A stretch of DNA of 64,000 bases from Denitrovibrio sp. (GCA_002869145.1 PKTM01000012.1:62001-126000), one strand, 5' to 3'; positions 32,818 to 64,000 are shown, counted from the first letter of the stretch. The notes: generated from the sequence alone by a model not told the origin. Numbers and translations are program-made.

Positions 32818-33834
32818 ATGAAGCAGGAAGTGATTTTGAAACTGAATAACCTTCATAAAATACTTAGAGCGATAGACCTTCTTAGTAGAAGACAGGGTGT
32901 GACAATCGATGAGCTAGCAGAGGAACTCAAAATCTCTCGTCGCTCAGTGCACAGACTGCTCAATGATCTGCATGATCTTAATTTCCCTCTATATGATGAG
33001 CGAGAGCCCTTTGAGCGTACAAAAACGTGGAAGCTGGAACCTGATTATGTCAAAAAGCTACCAAACATTAATATACCAGATATAAAGTTCTCTTCATCAG
33101 AGCTGATAGCTATAACCTTGCTTAAAGACAAAGAGGCAATCTTTGCAAATACAGAGATAGGCAAGGCACTAAAATCAGCTGTCGCCAAGATTGATGCGGT
33201 CTTTCCGAAAGACTTTATAGATAGTATGAACAAAGTCAAATCTGTATTCGCCATTTCCAACAAAATGCAAAAAGATTATTCCGAAAAAGGCGATATTATA
33301 GATTCTCTCACAACAGCTATACTGCAATGCAAAGAATGAAAGATTACATATCACACTTTTTACAACGACAAAGTCAGCACATTCGATGTGCATCCGTTGA
33401 GCATATTCGAGCATATGGGTGGGTTATATGCTTTTGTTTATCTGGACTACTATGACTCTGTTAAGGTATTGGCTCTGGAGCGGATGCAGGAGCTAACTGT
33501 GTCGGAAAAGACATTTGAAACTCCAAAAGGTGTCGATTTAGAGGACACAATGAAAGATGCTTTCGGTGTAGTTTATGATGACCCGATAAAAATCAAGCTC
33601 TGGATTTCAAAAGAACATGCCAAATATGTTAGATCACGTAAATACGCTGCCGACCAGCAGATCACTGATAACGATGACGGCAGTATAATCATAGAATTTT
33701 CAACCTCCGGATGGGTTGAAGTGAAGCAGTGGATACTCTCTATGGGTGCTCATGCAAAAGTGCTGGAACCTAAAGAAATGACCGAAGAAATCAAAAGCGA
33801 ATGCGAGGCAATATTAAACTTTCATAATGCATAA
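32818..33834 (+). pseudogene. HTH-WYL transcriptional regulator interrupted by an in-frame TGA
   Basis: Frame 32818-33339 (HTH domain, ILRAIDLLSRRQGVTIDELAEELKISRRSVHRLLNDL) and frame 33388-33834 (WYL part and C-terminal WCX-like domain, GWVEVKQWILSMGAHAKVLEP) are the same frame with only TGA at 33337-33339 between. The intervening codons KITYHTFYNDKVSTFDVHPL continue the WYL domain without a gap, matching the usual K-I-x-Y-x-S-x-x strand. The ancestral protein was 338 aa. Regulators of this type control many phage-defence operons by ligand-sensitive repression. Confidence 0.82.
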
Positions 33835-51679: not shown

Positions 51680-52471
51680 TTAATCACTGCTAGGCTCTTT
51701 ATCGCAAGGAGGTTCCGTATAAGGGAAACTCACAGTCTCATACTCGCCAGTCTCCGAATCAATAAGTAAAACTGACAGAGCATTTCCGTAACAGCAGCCT
51801 GTGTCCAGACCTATATCAGCAGAAGTCCCATCAGCAGTTTTTGTTATGACAGGGGCTATTTCAAGACCAGCTGATTTATAATCAAGTGAAGTATGACCGA
51901 ACACATAATATGTATTTTTACGTTCCTTCAGGCCGCCATAAAAATATCGCTCACGACTGTACATCAGGTCTTCCAAGTCATAGCCTCCCATCTTTTCCCC
52001 ATCGAGAATTCTATCTAGAGTGTCTCTGTCACCGCCTGAATGGGAAAAGATATAAGTCTTGTCTCCGATTTTCTGGACATGGTATATCTTCGCATTATCA
52101 AATATCGACAAATACTCTTTCATCTCATTACGTAATTCTTCTGAAATAAACTCTTCCTTTGTAAATGACTCGACTGTCTTTTCACCGCCGTTTCTCATCC
52201 AATATCGATATGCTTCATTGTCCCTAATACTTAACCAGCGAAGAAGCTTATCTTCATGATTACCTTTAAGTAAAATCACTGGGGTATCAGACTCCATAAG
52301 ATTTTTCACATACCTCAAAACCCATTTTGACCACTGACCTCGATCGATAAGGTCGCCCAAATATATGTACTGAACAATCTCATTGTTCTCCTTGATCTTT
52401 TCTATAAGTTTGACGTGCTCGTATTGGCAGCCATGTATGTCAGTAAAAACCGCTATAACTTTCTTTTTCAT
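51680..52471 (-). CDS. PPP-type metallophosphatase
   Basis: The 263-aa protein belongs to the serine/threonine-phosphatase or Ap4A-hydrolase branch of calcineurin-like enzymes: TDIHGCQYEH (about 11-20), YLGDLIDRGQWS (36-47), LLKGNHEDKLLRW (66-78), FSHSGGDRD and VFGHTSLDY supply the dinuclear metal ligands. After its TAA (51680-51682) the same frame stays open for 29 codons (YEDYFDWHLDECVKEAGESV, then a Lys-rich end) to TGA at 51590-51592, possibly a lost or readthrough tail. It is the last of a cluster of five phosphoesterases. Confidence 0.85.
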   Translation of the reverse strand: MKKKVIAVFTDIHGCQYEHVKLIEKIKENNEIVQYIYLGDLIDRGQWSKWVLRYVKNLMESDTPVILLKGNHEDKLLRWLSIRDNEAYRYWMRNGGEKTVESFTKEEFISEELRNEMKEYLSIFDNAKIYHVQKIGDKTYIFSHSGGDRDTLDRILDGEKMGGYDLEDLMYSRERYFYGGLKERKNTYYVFGHTSLDYKSAGLEIAPVITKTADGTSADIGLDTGCCYGNALSVLLIDSETGEYETVSFPYTEPPCDKEPSSD

Positions 52472-52480
52472 ATCGACCTC

Positions 52481-52897
52481 TTAAACTATCTTACAGCTCT
52501 GGATCATATGCATACAAAGAGTCTTGTAGTCCTGAGCTTTTTCTGTTTCATCTTTACAGTCCTGAATTCCTTGCAGAGTGTCACACCATGCACATGAACC
52601 GTATTCAACTTTGAAAGTGAAATAATTACACGGTTGATAGTCCAGTTCAGGCACAACAAAAAGCAGTGTCCCCTGATAGTACCCATCATCTATTTCATAA
52701 ATAGTCCGATAATCGGGAACACCTTCACAGTAAACTTCCCCAAACCAGTCCGGCTTAGCCTTATTGATTTCTTTTATGTTCATTCGTTCCAGGGTGATCC
52801 TCAGCAAATCTTTATAGCTGCCAAAATTATTACATTTGAGAAGCATATATAAATCTTCTTCGATCTCTGTAAATCTTTGGGCCATTTCCTCGATCAT
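52481..52897 (-). CDS. Phage-type protein of unknown function inside the phosphoesterase operon
   Basis: The 138-aa product includes NYFTFKVEYGSCAWCDTLQG and ends with YKTLCMHMIQSCKIV; the S-C-x-W/G-C-D-T-L pattern recurs in small hypothetical proteins of phages and mobile elements. It lies 9 bp from each neighbour, within the run of phosphoesterases. The function is not known. Confidence 0.6.
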   Translation of the reverse strand: MIEEMAQRFTEIEEDLYMLLKCNNFGSYKDLLRITLERMNIKEINKAKPDWFGEVYCEGVPDYRTIYEIDDGYYQGTLLFVVPELDYQPCNYFTFKVEYGSCAWCDTLQGIQDCKDETEKAQDYKTLCMHMIQSCKIV

Positions 52898-52905
52898 TAC
52901 TTACC

Positions 52906-53730
52906 TCAAATCAACCCTTTCTTCTGTGCAGCATTATGCAGATATTTTTCAATCCATTCATCTTCATAAACAAGCAGGGTCTGCCCAGTATCTATATCTA
53001 TTAAATTCTGATAAATAACAGTAAGATCACCAATACGCTTATCGTCGTGATAGTGACCGCAATACCAGTGCCGAAAATTAAGCCTGTCATAGATTTTTTC
53101 TAAGAAGAACTCGACTGGATCGTAGTACCGGCTCTTGGGATTTGTTGTCTGGATGAAATCCGAAAAGGTATTTCTGATTGGCGTATACGGCCCGGCATGG
53201 GTAATAACATAATCCACTTTCCAGTCAGCATCTTCCAATACAGCCAGAGCCTGATCTTTTTCACGCTTATTGACGAGTTCTTCCGGCCACCAGGTAACAT
53301 GTGGCGTACGGAACTCTTTATCCATGGAATTAGCTCCTACCAACACAAAAAAGGTCTTACCGTTGATATTAAATATCTGGGAACGCCTTAAGTGCATAAG
53401 CTTATTAGCGATAACCCCAACCTCCCCACCGCACCACTGACGGCGACGAAGTACATTGAGACGTGGAAAATTTTCGTGATTTCCATCAGTAAACACAGTG
53501 GTCAAAGGAAATATCTTGTTGTACTCTCCGATTAACTGTGACTCCATAGGAGTCTGCTTAGGGTAAAACAGAATACCTGTATCGCCTGCAATGATAACAA
53601 TGTCATCTCTGTCCAAAGGAGATACACCATATTTCCGTTGGAATTTCTCAGCCTGCAATGCCAACTGACGCAAATGGAACATATCAGAGGTAAAGTGTGT
53701 GTCTCCGGCAGCAATAGTCAGATGAAACAT
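52906..53730 (-). CDS. Metallophosphoesterase, paralogue A
   Basis: 274 aa; calcineurin-like motifs AAGDTHFTSDMF (I), IIAGDTGILF (II), TDGNHENFPRL (III), YVITHAGPYTP (IV) and YCGHYHDDK (V). Shares with paralogues B and D the block VGANSMDKEFRTPHVTWWPEE. The start overlaps the stop of the next gene (TAATG). Substrate unknown; such enzymes act on phosphomonoesters, phosphodiesters or cyclic nucleotides. Confidence 0.85.
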   Translation of the reverse strand: MFHLTIAAGDTHFTSDMFHLRQLALQAEKFQRKYGVSPLDRDDIVIIAGDTGILFYPKQTPMESQLIGEYNKIFPLTTVFTDGNHENFPRLNVLRRRQWCGGEVGVIANKLMHLRRSQIFNINGKTFFVLVGANSMDKEFRTPHVTWWPEELVNKREKDQALAVLEDADWKVDYVITHAGPYTPIRNTFSDFIQTTNPKSRYYDPVEFFLEKIYDRLNFRHWYCGHYHDDKRIGDLTVIYQNLIDIDTGQTLLVYEDEWIEKYLHNAAQKKGLI

Positions 53731-54455
53731 TACAGTACTCGTGCAAAATTATCGTAGAGGCACTGCAAATGCCTGCTCTGGTTGTCTTTCACTTTGCTTT
53801 TGACGTGCCAGTGAGCAAAGTACCACTCATTAAACTGCAGGTCAGCTTTGAGGAAGTAATCGAGGTAATAGCTTGTCTTATCAAAGAAGATTTCCTCATG
53901 CGGCAGTATCAGACGCATCTGACGTATGAAACTTTCAGGACATGTATGTGTCAGGACAATATCCACTTTGAAGTTATGCTTCTTTAAATTATAGAGGGCA
54001 TAATTGAACTCTTCCTCTGACGGTATTTCCTCAGGCCACCAGTCCAGACCTTCGGTACGAAACTGTTTATCGATACTCACACCACCGCCGAAACAGAAAA
54101 TCTTTTTGCCGTTTATCGTATATACTTCGCCCCGTTTCAGCGTAAAGATATTGTCGTAGAAGTGTCCCATTTTACCGCCGTATTTTTCTATTACGGGAAG
54201 TTCCGCAAGCCATTCGTGGTTGTCGTGATTTCCATCAAGCAGAAAAACATTAAATGGTAACTGAGTCAGCTTTATTATCTCATTAAGTTCCGCTTCGTTT
54301 TTGCTTGGATAAAAGAAACTAATTCCGTGATCACCCAGAACAACGACGACATCGCACTCTTTCATATCTCTGTAATTATGAAAAATTTGCGGTGACAGCC
54401 TGCTGGCTACATAGCCATGAGTGTCGCCAGTCACAAGTAATTTTATTTTTCCCAT
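53730..54455 (-). CDS. Metallophosphoesterase, paralogue B
   Basis: 241 aa; motifs LLVTGDTHGYVAS (I), VVVLGDHGISFF (II), LLDGNHDNHEW (III), IVLTHTCPES (IV) and YFAHWHVKSKV (V, the usual Gly replaced by Ala). Contains FGGGVSIDKQFRTEGLDWWP, nearly the same as in paralogue D. It overlaps the upstream gene by 13 bp. Confidence 0.85.
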   Translation of the reverse strand: MGKIKLLVTGDTHGYVASRLSPQIFHNYRDMKECDVVVVLGDHGISFFYPSKNEAELNEIIKLTQLPFNVFLLDGNHDNHEWLAELPVIEKYGGKMGHFYDNIFTLKRGEVYTINGKKIFCFGGGVSIDKQFRTEGLDWWPEEIPSEEEFNYALYNLKKHNFKVDIVLTHTCPESFIRQMRLILPHEEIFFDKTSYYLDYFLKADLQFNEWYFAHWHVKSKVKDNQSRHLQCLYDNFARVL

Positions 54456-55204
54456 AAATCACCCCACTCTTCTTCGAGTATGAAATATTGGTTGATAGGC
54501 AGATTAACTACACGAGTGCTGTCAATCATGCGCTCAGCCGCAAAGTGCATATGTCCGCAGAAGGCAATCTTTGGCAACAGAGCTTTAACAAGGTCTGTTA
54601 TAAGGTCGCAGCCATATTCGAGCTTCCCCCCATGATATTTAGCAGGATTTTCATGAAGCAGAAGGATATCGACTTCTCTACCTCTGCAGGCATCTATAAG
54701 CGCATGTATATCAGCTTCATTAAAATATGCAGCCCTCTTGGGCGAACAAAGTTTTCTGCGTTTTGGGTGCCACGGTTGAAAGTTCTCTGCTAGAGAGTGT
54801 TCTTCATGAAATATTTTTGAGAATCCGGCAACAGTCAGTTTGCCGACCCCTGTCTCTATCTCTGTGACTCCATAGTTCCCAAAGTAGAAGAAATTCGGAA
54901 CTAGCTCATGCGGACCCCTGCTCCTAAACTGCTCCAGCCAGCCGAATGGCTCATGGTTCCCTGAGATTGTATATGTTGGAACAGGAACACCTTTTAAATA
55001 TTCTGCAAACTCCAGAGGTCTATCGCCGCTTTTATATTCACACACGAATTTAGACGGCGCAGGAAAGTGCTGAAGGTCATCAAGACTGCGTATAGGTTCC
55101 AAGTCACCGCACTGCAATATGGTAGTGACGTCATTCTTTACAGCATTCTCGTACAGTGTTTTATGTTTACCGTGATTATCGGTGGTCAATAATATCTTTT
55201 TCAT
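54443..55204 (-). CDS. Metallophosphoesterase, divergent type C
   Basis: 253 aa; motifs LLTTDNHGKHKTL (I), ILQCGDLEPIRSL (II), TISGNHEPFGWLE (III), LLLHENPAKYHGG (IV) and FCGHMHFAAE (V). It lacks the SIDK-WW block of the other three and resembles YfcE/DR1281-like single-domain phosphoesterases more. ATGA overlap with the upstream paralogue D. Confidence 0.83.
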   Translation of the reverse strand: MKKILLTTDNHGKHKTLYENAVKNDVTTILQCGDLEPIRSLDDLQHFPAPSKFVCEYKSGDRPLEFAEYLKGVPVPTYTISGNHEPFGWLEQFRSRGPHELVPNFFYFGNYGVTEIETGVGKLTVAGFSKIFHEEHSLAENFQPWHPKRRKLCSPKRAAYFNEADIHALIDACRGREVDILLLHENPAKYHGGKLEYGCDLITDLVKALLPKIAFCGHMHFAAERMIDSTRVVNLPINQYFILEEEWGDLWEK

Positions 55205-55893
55205 ATTTTCAGCTCCCTAACCTGTAGATAGACTGAATGGAATTTGACCCCATTCTGTTCCGCAGTTATGTCTCTGTGCCAATGCCCGAAGTACCATTCT
55301 TTGACTTTCATCTTATAGAGAAGTACTTCGAAGCGATCCCAGGTTTTGTCGTAGTATTTGTCGTTGGGATGTACCGGAAAACCAAAGAGGTCTATAGCCG
55401 ATAGCGGGCATGTATGCGTAAGAACGTAATCTACTTCCCAATCGCTGTAGCCAAGGCAATGCTCAGCATGGCGGTAGTCATCCTCAGTCGGAACTTCCTC
55501 CTGCCACCACGACATACCCTCTTTCCGCCACGCCCTGTCTATGGACAGTGCTCCTCCCATACAGAAAAACTTCTTTCCAAGGATGGTATAGACCTCTCCT
55601 CGACGAAGGTAAAGTATGTTGTCGTAAAATACGCCGACATAACCGCCGAATTTTTCTTCGAGAGGCAAGCCGAAGTAATCTGGAAGCCTGTCGTGGTTAC
55701 CATCTATCAACAGCGAAGTCCAAGGGCATGACTCTAAGAACTTCAATCCCGCATAGTTGAAAAGGTGAAGCTCAAGATCGCCTAAAAGTATCAGGTAATC
55801 ATCTTTCGTAAGATAAGCTCCTAGAGGAAACCGCTCAGTACCCAAAACATCAGCTATCGCAGCATGCAAGTCTGACAGAATGAATATCCTCAT
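55201..55893 (-). CDS. Metallophosphoesterase, paralogue D (first gene of the operon)
   Basis: 230 aa; motifs ILSDLHAAIADVL (I), LILLGDLELHLF (II), LLIDGNHDRLPDY (III), YVLTHTCPLSAID (IV) and YFGHWHRDIT (V). Shares GGALSIDRAWRKEGMSWWQE with paralogues A and B. It has a TAGGAGG ribosome-binding site and three TTAGCAC repeats 26-67 bp upstream of the ATG; it begins the overlapping operon. Confidence 0.85.
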   Translation of the reverse strand: MRIFILSDLHAAIADVLGTERFPLGAYLTKDDYLILLGDLELHLFNYAGLKFLESCPWTSLLIDGNHDRLPDYFGLPLEEKFGGYVGVFYDNILYLRRGEVYTILGKKFFCMGGALSIDRAWRKEGMSWWQEEVPTEDDYRHAEHCLGYSDWEVDYVLTHTCPLSAIDLFGFPVHPNDKYYDKTWDRFEVLLYKMKVKEWYFGHWHRDITAEQNGVKFHSVYLQVRELKI

Positions 55894-57963: not shown

Positions 57964-59289
57964 ATGAAAGATAAATTTAATATTGTTGAGCATGTGCTTG
58001 ACCACCAAGACTACTTTAATGACAAAAGATTCAACTATAAGCTGTCGCATAGTGATCTCAGCCAGTTTGTCATTTCGTTTCATGACCTTCAGTTTCTTGA
58101 ACGGCAAGAAAGCTCTCTGGAAATCCTCAGTAAAATCACTGATGAAATTAAAGAAAAAACTGTAACATGGAAAGAGCGTAAAGAACTTAAGGCTGAGGTC
58201 AAATACTATGAGCGGTTTGGCCGGACTGAAGACTGCTTGGCTGTAGTGCACGACCATGCGGATCACCCTCATATACATTTTGTCTACCCTAAACTTCAGT
58301 TAAATAAGAAGCAAACTAAATATATTAAAAGGGGATACGGGCTCAACTTTCACCAGCTTAAATGCCACATCAAAACGATATGCGACAGATATAGTACGGA
58401 GCCTAACTTCTATCTAACATCAAAAGAAAGACAGGCATTCCGTAGCCCAAATATTAACATGAAGCTGAAGAAGACTCTGTCACATCTATCATGGCAAATG
58501 AAGCAAAATCCGGATTCTAGAATCAAATACAGTCGAGAGCAGATAATGAGAATGCTTGAAAGATACGGCAAGCAAAGCGGAGACATGTCATTTGTAAATA
58601 AATTCATCCGGCTATGGAATGAGACGCAAAATGATGATCTCCCTCCCGCACTGCTGGAACACGACCAGAAATTGCTTGAGATACTGGAAGAAAACGACAG
58701 TGAAAAGCTGCTATCATCAATTAATGAAACAAACTACAGATCCATCATTCTTAACGACCTGATACGTTTTATACATAAGAAGGCCACTAATCTCCTTCAC
58801 GAACTTACAGATCTGGCAGTACTCCAATATCCGAAATCCATTGCAAAGAAAATATTGAGTATCAAAAAGAAGCTAAAAAATGAGATTCTAGAGAGGTCCC
58901 AAAAAAGACCCGTAAAACCATCTATATACGATGTTTTCAACAGGGCTCTCTCGCATGTGATGAGACATTCTAGAGGCTTTGATGATTTGGAAAAGAATAT
59001 GAAATGCTATTTCGATGATTTCGGTTTTGCAGGTCTGCCCCACAAAAAAGTCGATGAATTTATCCCTGTCTTAAACCAGACCCTGTATTTTATACCCACA
59101 GGGGAAACCCCTTACAAGAAAAACAAGCTCATCCGTCAGAGATTAATAAAGAACACTTTGGATAATGTCCCAGACTTCCGGCCGCTACATTCCATTAAGA
59201 AACAAATTGATCTTATTAAACAAAGGTTGGAACCAGCTGAAGAGGCACAACCAACACTTTACTCTGAGCCACCAGATCTTATAATTTAA
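57964..59289 (+). CDS. Relaxase / mobilization nuclease
   Basis: The 441-aa protein has an HUH-type metal site HPHIHFVYPKLQLN near residue 101, preceded by FVISFHDLQFLERQESSLEILSKI (catalytic-domain strand) and GRTEDCLAVVHDHAD. Relaxases nick oriT and carry the strand into the recipient. The helical C-terminal part (about 200-400) is unrecognised. With the integrase and excisionase at 44.9-46.3 kb it points to an integrative mobilizable element. No type IV secretion genes are in the window. Confidence 0.8.
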   Translation: MKDKFNIVEHVLDHQDYFNDKRFNYKLSHSDLSQFVISFHDLQFLERQESSLEILSKITDEIKEKTVTWKERKELKAEVKYYERFGRTEDCLAVVHDHADHPHIHFVYPKLQLNKKQTKYIKRGYGLNFHQLKCHIKTICDRYSTEPNFYLTSKERQAFRSPNINMKLKKTLSHLSWQMKQNPDSRIKYSREQIMRMLERYGKQSGDMSFVNKFIRLWNETQNDDLPPALLEHDQKLLEILEENDSEKLLSSINETNYRSIILNDLIRFIHKKATNLLHELTDLAVLQYPKSIAKKILSIKKKLKNEILERSQKRPVKPSIYDVFNRALSHVMRHSRGFDDLEKNMKCYFDDFGFAGLPHKKVDEFIPVLNQTLYFIPTGETPYKKNKLIRQRLIKNTLDNVPDFRPLHSIKKQIDLIKQRLEPAEEAQPTLYSEPPDLII

Positions 59290-59490: not shown

Positions 59491-61134
59491 TTGCCTCTAT
59501 CGCCAAAATACTCAACCATACCTGTTATAGATCTGTTCGCCGGACCTGGTGGTCTTGGAGAAGGTTTTTCATCCGTAAATAAAAACTCTAAGTCAATTTT
59601 TGATATTAAACTATCAATAGAAAAAGACCCACAAGCTCACAGCACTCTTGAATTAAGAAGCTTTTACAGAAAGTTCTAGCCTTGTGATGTCCCTGAAGAC
59701 TATTATCAATTACTTAAAGCTGACACTTTAGCCAAAAGGGAGAAAATAAAAAAAAGCTTATTTGAGCAATATCCTAAGCAAGCTGCGGCCGCTAAAAATG
59801 AAGCATGGTTGGCAGAACTTGGGGCAGATGGTTTCCCTCCAGAATTAGTTGATCAGAGAATAGAGTCTGCTCTAAACAAATCAAAACAGTGGCTGTTAAT
59901 TGGTGGTCCACCATGCCAGGCATACTCACTGGTTGGAAGATCTCGGGTTGGTGGCATAAACAATGGAGACAATAGGGTCTATCTATATAAAGAATACCTA
60001 AGAATTATTGCGCAGCATCAGCCGACTGTTTTTGTAATGGAAAATGTTAAAGGGCTACTCTCTGCCAAGATCAATGATGAACACATCTTTGAGTGGATAC
60101 TAAGAGATCTCAGAAACCCCAGTTCTTTATTCCCTAAAACAAACTCTTATAGGTATAAAATCTTTTCTTTGTCCTACACACCAAGTGATTATATTGACGA
60201 GTTTCCATCTTACAAAGAGAACAGTGACTATATAATTAAGTCTGAGAAATACGGCATCCCACAAAGAAGACATCGGGTAATATTATTAGGAATAAGAGAA
60301 GATGTTTCAGTTAGTCCTCATATCCTCAAACAAAAGGTAAACGAAGTCAGCCTAAAAGATGTTATAGGTGATTTGCCCAAAATCAGGAGTGCTTTAAATA
60401 GAGAATTTATTTCTTACAGTATTATAAATAACAAGAAAAAAAGGCAATATAAGCAAGTAAAAGACTCCTATAAGACATGGAGTTCCACTATAAACACATA
60501 TAAAGATGAAATATGTACATTTAATGGGTTCGTTAATACGGATTGCTCCTTTCAGTTGACAACAAATGAGCATGGTAGAGGTTCTGAATTCATTAAATAT
60601 GATACTCCATCAGATGAAAACCCTCTAAAAGATTGGTTCAATGATCCTCGACTTAATGGAGTATGCAATCATGAATCCAGAGCTCACCTTACTCAGGATT
60701 TAAAAAGATACCTATTTTCGAGCATGTTCACCCAAAAGTATAAACAATTTCCACGTCTTCATGAGTACACTAAGTTTTGCAGTGAATTGATGCCAGACCA
60801 CGAAAATGCAAATACCGGTAAGTTCGCAGACAGATTCAGAGTGCAACTACCTGATCAGCCAGCAACAACAGTCACAAGCCATATTTCAAAAGACGGGCAT
60901 TATTTCATCCATTATGATCAGGCACAATGCAGAAGTCTCACAGTAAGAGAGGCAGCCAGAATCCAAACATTTCCTGATAACTACCTGTTTTATGGCTCTA
61001 GGACTGCACAGTTTCATCAAGTCGGTAATGCAGTGCCACCTTACCTCGCTTCGCAGATTGCAATAATTGTAAAAGACATCTTCGAAGCCAATTCGCTTAA
61101 AACTAAGAATTCTGTAACTAAAAGGACTAAATAA
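59491..61134 (+). pseudogene. C5-cytosine DNA methyltransferase interrupted by an in-frame TAG
   Basis: The frame opens at a TTG start (59491, AAAGGATG upstream) with motif [18 protein letters not shown], reaches TAG at 59677-59679 (codon 63), and continues in frame through PCDVPEDYYQLLKADT, motif IV WLLIGGPPCQAYSLVGRSR (PCQ Cys about codon 142), motif VI-like VFVMENVKG, motif VIII GIPQRRHRVILLG and motif X FHQVGNAVPPYLASQIA. A product started at the ATG 59809 would lack motif I (SAM binding). So the enzyme is either dead or made by readthrough. Its stop overlaps the ATPase start (TAATG). Confidence 0.88.
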
Positions 61135-62642
61135 TGTGCCGATATGAAGACGTTACACCTAATCCGGAATATCTAATTAAATCAGTGGCTGAACAGGGCT
61201 ACAGCCTAGAAGCAGCATTAGCAGATTTAATTGATAACTCCATATCTGCAGTTGCCGATAAAATCGAGATCCTAATAAAAACAGCAAAAGAACCTTTCAC
61301 CCTTATCCTAGCTGACAACGGACACGGGATGGATGAAGAAACTCTTAAAAAAAGCATGCGTTTCCCATGTACTTCTCCCGACAATCCAAGGACTCAGTCT
61401 GATTTGGGTCGTTTTGGACTGGGCATGAAAACAGCTTCATTTTCGCAAACCAGAAAATTCACCGTGCTCTCAAAAAACGCCTCTTCACTCGATTACAAAG
61501 GAAGAACCTGGGATTTAAATACTCTTACTGATCATGGCTGGAAACTGATTATTAACACTCAAGAAGAAATCTATTCAATGACTGAAGAATATACAAAAAT
61601 GAGTAATGAGTTTCTTGATCCATTTCAGAACTTCAAACCAAATACTATAATAATTTGGCACGGACTTTATAAATATGAAGAATATCTGGAAGAATCAAAT
61701 CGTTCAGCAGCACTAAAAAAAGAAATAACAGAAACCACGGCAGAACACCTGTCATTGGTCTTCCATAAATATATGGAAGACAAAAAAGGACCACTTAAAA
61801 TCAGGCTTAACAACAGTCAGCTCGAACCTTTTAATCCATTTCCTGTTCAGCAAAGTGATTTCAGGCCTATTGAACCCAAACACAGAAAGTTTGGCCCTGA
61901 TTATTTTAATCTTGAAGGCTATATACTCCCAAACAGAAGTATTGAAGAATCAAAAAATGCTGGAAATATATGGACCACAACACACAGAAGTCTTATTGAC
62001 ATGGAAGGAATATATATATATCGCTCAAAAAGAGTAATCTATTTTGGCGGGTGGAGTGGTGTCATTAAAAAATTGCCCCGTCTTCAACTGGCCAGACTCA
62101 AAATTGACATCGGAAATGGTGTCGATAATCTACTGCACCTTAATGTCGCAAAATCAAAGGTTATTATTCCTCATGACCTGAAAGATGCCATTAAAAGTTA
62201 TATTGAAGAATTGAAAGCAGAAGCGACAAAAGAGTTTTTCAATAAGGGGACAACAAGACTAACTTCTGAAAAATGCAAGAACTCATCTTTGTTCGTAACG
62301 ACACCTTCCAGTAAGGGAATGTTGTTGGAACTTAATACTGATTTCCCATTAATAAGGCAAATCATCGATAACCTGCCAAAAAATGAGACCGCCAAATTTA
62401 CTCTTCTAATCAAAATGGTAAACACACAGATCAATAAAATTAAACACACTCATGATGACACTGATTTCCAATGTCTGGCAGAAGAAGAACAAAAAACAGG
62501 AAATGAACAGTTAAAAATAATTATGGAAATAGTTCAGAATAGTGGAATGGATAAAAACGTTGTCAGAAAAGAGCTTCTACCAATGCTGGGATATGATATC
62601 AGCTCTCTGCCAAAAGATATAATAGGAGTACTGTATGACTAA
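61134..62642 (+). CDS. GHKL (MutL/MORC-type) ATPase of a restriction-like system
   Basis: The 502-aa protein has the GHKL motifs N-box ALADLIDNSISA (about 28-39), G1 LADNGHGMDEE (about 60-70) and G2 GRFGLGMKTASFS (about 96-108). Later parts include WGGWSGV-like YFGGWSGVIKKLPRLQLARLKIDI. MutL-like/MORC ATPases next to a cytosine methyltransferase and a Z1 helicase form a described family of predicted restriction-modification systems. It overlaps both neighbours, so all three are cotranslated. Confidence 0.87.
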   Translation: MCRYEDVTPNPEYLIKSVAEQGYSLEAALADLIDNSISAVADKIEILIKTAKEPFTLILADNGHGMDEETLKKSMRFPCTSPDNPRTQSDLGRFGLGMKTASFSQTRKFTVLSKNASSLDYKGRTWDLNTLTDHGWKLIINTQEEIYSMTEEYTKMSNEFLDPFQNFKPNTIIIWHGLYKYEEYLEESNRSAALKKEITETTAEHLSLVFHKYMEDKKGPLKIRLNNSQLEPFNPFPVQQSDFRPIEPKHRKFGPDYFNLEGYILPNRSIEESKNAGNIWTTTHRSLIDMEGIYIYRSKRVIYFGGWSGVIKKLPRLQLARLKIDIGNGVDNLLHLNVAKSKVIIPHDLKDAIKSYIEELKAEATKEFFNKGTTRLTSEKCKNSSLFVTTPSSKGMLLELNTDFPLIRQIIDNLPKNETAKFTLLIKMVNTQINKIKHTHDDTDFQCLAEEEQKTGNEQLKIIMEIVQNSGMDKNVVRKELLPMLGYDISSLPKDIIGVLYD

Positions 62643-64000
62643 CAGAGAACTTATTGATTTCATAAAGACATTAATAACTAATCAAATATCGATTCAGATA
62701 GCTACAGGTAAACCAATAACTAGGGATTTCTTTGAATCAGAAAGCCTGTACTCACATATTACAACTCATTTGTCTCCATTTAATCTCTCTGAAGAAAGAC
62801 TAAGTTCTCTTTTTGAAACTGCGGTAAAGGAGGCAAGGTTAAAACACCAGTCCGGCATGTCTCCAAGCATTTCCATAAATGACAATATTGATTTCGGAGA
62901 TTGGCTCGATGATAAAAAAATAAATGAATTGGGCTGGTCAAAAGATCTTTTGTCGAATTATAGAACCAGATATTTCGCATACCTGAGAAAACTCGGCAGG
63001 TCAGACGAGTACATAGAAGAAACAAAGCGATCCAGTATTGAGATCATAAAAAAACTGGGCAACCCTCTTACAAAAGAACCTTTTTTCAGGAAAGGACTGG
63101 TTGTAGGAGGTGTACAGATGGGTAAAACGGCGAACTTTAATGCAGTCATAAACAGTGCCGTTGATTTAGGGTATGATTTAATAATCGTTCTCTCAGGAAT
63201 AATGGAAGACCTTAGAAAGCAAACTCAGAAGCGGATAGAAACCGATGTAGTTGGAAAGTTTGTTAAAGAAGGTGTTTTTTTAGGAGTTGGCAAAGATGCT
63301 GGATTTGGTCCAAGAGGGGAATACAAGGATGTTATGCAGGTAATTTCAATAACTTCCGAAGATACAGATTTCAAAAGAACTATGCTCGGTGCCGATTTTA
63401 CCTTAAACAGCAGAAACATACTAATATGTAAGAAAAACACAAGTGTACTAAAAAATTTGATCTTATGGCTCAATGATTATCTGACAACAAATAAAAACAA
63501 AATGGAAGAAGTCCCGTTGCTGATTATTGATGATGAAGCGGATAATGCCTCTCTAAACAACCTTGGGCATAAAGGGATTGAATATGCATCTACAATTAAT
63601 GGTCATATAAGAGCCTTGCTGGCATTGTTCAGGAAAAAAGTTTATTTGGGTTATACAGCTACACCTTTTGGCAATGTATTACAGGACAGACATGAATCTC
63701 CTTCGAAAAAGTGGCCAATTAAAGTCAAAGATACTGTCAAAGAGTTTGAGCAGGAATCAAGCCTGTTCCCAAATGACTTTATTGAGTTATTATTTCCCCC
63801 ACCTAACTATGTCGGAGCCAAAAATTACTTTAAAACAAAATATCATGACCATATCAAAACTCTGCCATTAATCGAGCCCATTAAAGATTTCATTAACGAT
63901 TTCCCGTATAGAATAAATATTGATACTAATAACCCAACAAAGGATACATACAGAGCAACAACAAGATCAGTGAATAAGGATGATGACTTCCCTAAAAAAC
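62635..64000 (+). CDS. Z1-domain superfamily-II helicase/endonuclease-like protein (N-terminal part)
   Basis: 455 codons without a stop to the window end. Motifs: GLVVGGVQMGKTANFNAVI (Walker A, about residue 159), LIIVLSGIMEDLRKQTQKRI, LLIIDDEADNAS (Walker B/DEAD, about 298) and VYLGYTATPFGNVLQ (motif III). This is the N-terminal helicase half of Z1 proteins, which are linked to MORC-type ATPases and often followed by a PD-(D/E)XK or AIPR gene. It overlaps the ATPase gene by 8 bp. Confidence 0.88.
   Translation, partial: MTNRELIDFIKTLITNQISIQIATGKPITRDFFESESLYSHITTHLSPFNLSEERLSSLFETAVKEARLKHQSGMSPSISINDNIDFGDWLDDKKINELGWSKDLLSNYRTRYFAYLRKLGRSDEYIEETKRSSIEIIKKLGNPLTKEPFFRKGLVVGGVQMGKTANFNAVINSAVDLGYDLIIVLSGIMEDLRKQTQKRIETDVVGKFVKEGVFLGVGKDAGFGPRGEYKDVMQVISITSEDTDFKRTMLGADFTLNSRNILICKKNTSVLKNLILWLNDYLTTNKNKMEEVPLLIIDDEADNASLNNLGHKGIEYASTINGHIRALLALFRKKVYLGYTATPFGNVLQDRHESPSKKWPIKVKDTVKEFEQESSLFPNDFIELLFPPPNYVGAKNYFKTKYHDHIKTLPLIEPIKDFINDFPYRINIDTNNPTKDTYRATTRSVNKDDDFPKK

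Follow-up and report, generated by a model that had tools for sequence, protein, structure and literature searches.

The window, that is, the whole 64,000-nucleotide stretch of Denitrovibrio sp. DNA analysed here (C13:62001-126000, from a genome of 2.88 Mb in 29 contigs with a completeness of 99.4%), ends inside an operon, and the part lying past the window end was followed on the same contig in locus L004 (C13:120000-139999). The gene order is C5-cytosine DNA methyltransferase, MORC ATPase, Z1 helicase, PD-(D/E)XK nuclease, AIPR and DUF6998. The first gene (59491-61134, +), assigned by PF00145 and by alignment to relatives, contains one in-frame stop. It is followed by an intact gene for an MzaB-like MORC-family GHKL ATPase (61134-62642, +; PF13589 and MzaB models) and by the gene for an MzaC-like Z1 helicase (+; PF10593 and MzaC), which begins at 62635, runs beyond 64000 and continues to L004:7506 (L004:4636-7506). 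The MORC ATG at 61134 shares bases with the methyltransferase stop (TAATG) and the Z1 ATG at 62635 has an 8-nt overlap with the MORC stop, confirming what had been claimed from the DNA alone (the sequence-only reading), namely that these three genes overlap as one operon; the MORC gene also has its own ribosome-binding site (AAGGA). As that reading had advised, nuclease genes were sought beyond 64 kb, and a PD-(D/E)XK nuclease gene (DUF4420, PF14390) was found there at L004:7655-8671, together with AIPR (L004:8664-10538) and the last operon gene, DUF6998 (L004:10575-11090), 3' of which lie a HipA-like gene and then a DUF4365 gene. The DUF6998 protein strongly matches the PADLOC 'methyl-directed restriction enzyme' models (E 3.5e-65), a putative label. 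Directly upstream of the operon lies 57964-59289 (+), the product of which contains the relaxase-like motif HPHIHF (PF03432, below cut-off) and which is possibly a mobile-element neighbour. Farther upstream, a gene row at 51680-55893 (-) contains several tandem calcineurin-type phosphoesterase-like paralogues, as recognised by reading the translations.

Affiliation of the operon

Iyer et al. (2008) described the motifs GhXhhpXXRhl for MORC and DThhQXuRhFG for the helicase C-terminal region (PMC2292703), and both are present here, as GIYIYRSKRVI at 62007-62039 and as DTLLQMGRWFG at L004:6544. The E-D-ExK motif of RE-fold nucleases is also present in the operon (DFVLDKKHVEIK at L004:8228), and none of the helicase, nuclease or MORC motifs is damaged. 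These family-specific motifs and the gene content uphold the identification as a MutL/MORC-associated R-M system; judged by its sequence, the operon belongs to the third type of MORC-associated R-M operons of Iyer, Abhiman and Aravind (2008), whose common features are a MORC ATPase, an SF2/Z1 helicase, an RE-fold nuclease, a cytosine methylase and AIPR (PMC2292703), and it is no new kind of system. It differs from that type in that the methyltransferase and the Z1 gene each have a premature stop, and in that no Vsr gene was found in the operon or in the genome. In another member of the order, the same methyltransferase subfamily stands beside a Vsr gene, without Z1. The gene set that Miller et al. 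(2022) describe as a putative Type II defence system, with a core of Z1, PD-(D/E)XK and cytosine methyltransferase joined by AIPR and MORC (PMC9523054), is likewise present in full, but two of its core genes, those of the methyltransferase and Z1, carry interruptions here.

The operon also resembles the anti-phage system mzaABCDE (MZA), since models of the MzaB, C, D and E types match its proteins in the same order. The PADLOC MzaB-E models match, whereas the NCBIfam scores stayed below the equivalog cut-offs for MzaB to MzaE (195/850, 346/1500, 84/420 and 271/1050 bits), and the sigma factor MzaA had no match among the operon proteins scanned. The mzaABCDE system is listed with that sigma factor and without a methyltransferase, whereas this operon has one; the two are related but, as judged by the NCBIfam cut-offs, are not the same system. 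The Z1 gene was absent from both same-genus genomes compared, indicating that the operon is accessory and patchy in its distribution.

Premature stops in the methyltransferase and the Z1 helicase

A single TAG at 59677-59679 (codon 63) is the only interruption of the methyltransferase frame, which runs from TTG 59491, with an AAGGAT-like ribosome-binding site just 5' of it, to the TAA at 61132-61134. Motif I (FAGPGG, 59536-59553, +) lies before this TAG, and motif IV with the catalytic Cys (GGPPCQ, 59902-59919, +), ENV (60040), QRRHR (60262) and the C-terminal QVGNAV (61018) all lie after it, so that motifs I-II are split from motifs IV-X. That the TAG parts motif I from motif IV, as previously proposed, was thus confirmed by the motif positions and also by PF00145, which matches both fragments, narrowly missing the Pfam cut-off with the first 62 aa and far exceeding it with the remainder. 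The alignment of relatives crosses the TAG without a frameshift, at about 30-56% identity, and the residue at codon 63 is variable among them (A, E, P, D, R, V or N). Since the read-through frame retains 93 of the 94 residues that are invariant in 14 relatives, the interruption is not an artefact of frame choice. With a TAG at codon 63, the gene does not read as that of a working cytosine methyltransferase, and the enzyme is predicted to be null in this genome. The first in-frame ATG, GTG or TTG past the TAG is TTG 59809, 130 nt downstream and without a clear ribosome-binding site; reinitiation past the TAG was rejected, there being no in-frame ATG, GTG or TTG before TTG 59809. Split C5 methyltransferases occur in nature and have been engineered, and each fragment here keeps its motifs, so both pieces might in principle be translated and reassemble into a working enzyme. 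The chance of this seems close to nil, given the poor start at TTG 59809 and the loss that it would entail of the stretch between the TAG and that start, which carries conserved residues.

A second in-frame stop was found in the Z1 gene, where a TAA at codon 957 (L004:7504-7506, equivalent to window position 65503-65505 and thus 1.5 kb past the window) removes the last ~67 residues. Translated beyond the TAA, the next 67 codons give the usual Z1 tail (...LDIPIIGYAIG...), and the Z1 homology of all six relatives tested continues past the TAA in the same frame, to about L004:7626-7707; the 148-nt gap between the Z1 and nuclease genes is therefore largely the lost tail. Within the tail, Pro993, Pro1002 and Tyr1012 (numbering of the intact protein of locus L047) are at least 90% conserved across 26 Z1 proteins. 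By a pattern count, 90 of 104 loci have the tail; among the 14 loci missing the pattern, 11 have a recognisable tail by eye, and the rest are the window, L077 and L121. By sequence, the Z1 protein has no match among solved structures. The intact L047 protein was modelled with AlphaFold2 from an alignment made without two rows from plasmid records (mean pLDDT 77, pTM 0.65). In the model the tail would form a helix (978-987) and two strands (994-1000 and 1010-1015), at a pLDDT of about 70-89 (block means of 82 and 89 for residues 981-1000) except at its end, where roughly the last 20 residues are predicted to be disordered. From the conservation and the modelled fold of the tail, we infer that the truncated Z1 helicase is inactive. 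The sequence-only reading had posed the broken methyltransferase as a paradox, loss of methylation being expected to be lethal beside a normal restriction arm; with a lesion in Z1 that takes away this tail and probably the activity, the paradox does not stand as posed. A loss-of-function lesion in Z1 was among the outcomes which that reading had itself named as refuting it.

The other operon proteins were compared with those of 14 relatives in the same manner. MORC keeps 54 of 56 invariant residues (the two changes are R to K), the nuclease 20 of 20 and AIPR 55 of 57, and the only invariant residues missing from Z1 are three in the lost tail. The two stops aside, the operon is without visible degradation, with nearly all invariant residues kept in four of the five main proteins, which suggests either that any decay is recent or that part of the operon is still under selection.

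Possible decoding or miscalling of the stops

We examined whether the stops are decoded in this genome. Reassignment of TAG was rejected, as the genome encodes release factor 1, 10 of the 65 window ORFs with 100 aa or more terminate at TAG, and the interruptions comprise a TAG, a TAA and a TGA. The TGA (33337-33339, codon 174) splits a third gene, that of an HTH_11-WYL-WCX transcriptional regulator at 32818-33834 (+), for which no close homologue was found in 12 relatives. A suppressor tRNA was rejected because none of the 38 tRNAs searched has a stop-reading anticodon (CTA, TTA or TCA), and a readthrough-promoting RNA structure was rejected because RNA folding 3' of both operon stops was no better than for shuffled sequence. 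TAG is an ordinary stop in this genome, and that each of the three stop codons is seen once as an interruption fits ordinary nonsense mutation or sequencing error and not recoding.

Low-level readthrough by near-cognate decoding could still yield enough methyltransferase to protect the DNA and some full-length Z1. In E. coli, termination at UAG is relatively weak when C follows, and the UAG here precedes C; codon 63 tolerates many residues, and both frames are otherwise conserved. Against this stand the release factor, the tRNA set, the ordinary use of TAG in the window and the lack of an unusual fold after either stop, and no surveyed relative has such a stop; we consider this explanation very unlikely. 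The two operon stops do share the heptamer TTCTARC, at 59674-59680 (TTC-TAG-C) and L004:7501-7507 (TTC-TAA-C), which occurs 9 times in the window against about 22 expected; two random nonsense sites would share the preceding codon and the following base with a chance of about 0.9%, a coincidence noticed post hoc. That both stops are tolerated or regulatory readthrough sites, throttling methylation and restriction so that the operon stays alive at a low set point, seems extremely unlikely.

The same shared context may instead point to a sequencing or assembly error, with one or both stops miscalled and the operon intact. In favour of an error, the operon was examined in a single assembly, everything else in both genes is conserved, and a third window gene is also split by a lone stop. 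However, each of the three interruptions is a lone in-frame stop with no shift of frame, while errors of assembly frequently introduce indels; the conserved genes checked, those of release factors 1 and 2 and of the other methyltransferase, are free of internal stops, and the completeness of the genome is high. We therefore regard such an error as unlikely.

Related loci and probable decay of the operon

A scan of the genome collection with the methyltransferase fragment alone gave no matches, and the survey of related loci was therefore seeded with a Z1 alignment, which retrieved 80 loci from the genome collection (the best 80 of at least 415 by similarity) and 23 from viral contigs, to which three plasmid loci were added. 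Both flanks were present at 79 survey loci, and a C5 methyltransferase was found at all 79 and was broken at none, being intact by a motif and length test in 77, by eye in L118 and by Pfam in L064. The surveyed methyltransferases span several subfamilies, and in a few loci (e.g. L064, L089, L120 and L126) the enzyme lies several kilobases off and could belong to a neighbouring system. One Priestia plasmid and one Helicobacter plasmid, on which Z1 proteins stand in other arrangements, were excluded from the count. The only other broken methyltransferase seen was a fragmentary one on a Devosia plasmid, where MORC, Z1 and AIPR are also fragmented; these breaks could be sequencing errors in the record. 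Both broken methyltransferases thus sit among other broken genes, and this, together with the 79 unbroken ones, supports, without proving, a role for this methyltransferase as the putative protective partner of the MORC/Z1 core.

A different role for the methyltransferase was also weighed, in which it is not the antidote and MORC, Z1, nuclease and AIPR sense something other than absent methylation and are still active. The sigma factor listed for mzaABCDE in place of a methyltransferase agrees with this, as do the differing subfamily and orientation of some surveyed enzymes. On the other hand, none of the 79 fully flanked relatives lacks an unbroken C5 methyltransferase, the enzyme is a core gene in Miller et al. 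(PMC9523054), and Z1 here is truncated too, so that we find this role quite unlikely. A backup enzyme of the same specificity was looked for as well. Contig C7 carries an intact R-M locus (L005:4118-6949) with a Dcm-like methyltransferase (PRK10458 subfamily), an MvaI/BcnI-family endonuclease and a neighbour gene; the Dcm-like enzyme was rejected as a probable backup, since it has its own nuclease and a divergent target region. Of the three ways out of the paradox offered earlier, damage to the restriction arm as well is favoured by the Z1 TAA, readthrough of the methyltransferase is unsupported, and a role other than antidote is disfavoured by the 79 loci.

The likely explanation is that this is a horizontally acquired MORC/Z1 R-M operon in early decay, that is, the recent pseudogenisation of a costly restriction system. 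As suggested by its protein families, the intact kind would probably carry out methylation-guided restriction, in which the C5 methyltransferase would mark self DNA, the MORC ATPase and the Z1 helicase/translocase would find or remodel unmarked DNA, and the PD-(D/E)XK nuclease would cut it. The Z1 step is pictured after CglI and NgoAVII, whose cleavage of unmethylated DNA is driven by an ATPase that has both DEAD and Z1 domains (PMC4267653). These systems share with the operon a C5 methyltransferase and a Z1-domain ATPase and so may serve as a biochemical model for this step, but they have a PLD-family nuclease, unlike the operon, and are described as three-gene systems without MORC or AIPR. 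In the decay proposed here, the Z1 lesion, or a loss of expression, would disable DNA cleavage first; the methyltransferase would then become dispensable, and a nonsense mutation in it could be tolerated. In addition, the TAG leaves about 485 codons untranslated ahead of the TAATG-coupled MORC gene, and such polarity may lower the expression of the restriction genes, only partially since MORC has its own ribosome-binding site. Either loss of cleavage or polarity would remove the expected lethality without readthrough. The order of the lesions is not readable from one genome.

Toxic restriction genes of the PabI family decay by nonsense and frameshift mutation (PMC10273834). Here both arms are truncated, the methyltransferase by its TAG and Z1 by its TAA, and the other operon genes are still open. 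Decay is favoured by two independent in-frame stops, by the homology that continues past both of them and by the lack of a broken methyltransferase in the 79 relatives, and the conservation and modelled fold of the lost Z1 tail, the Devosia plasmid with several broken operon genes, the accessory nature of the operon and the normal use of TAG were also counted for it. Counted against it were the near-complete retention of invariant residues in four of the five main proteins and the undamaged helicase, nuclease and MORC motifs. Overall, the apparent paradox of a broken antidote is removed by the second lesion, which lay just outside the window.
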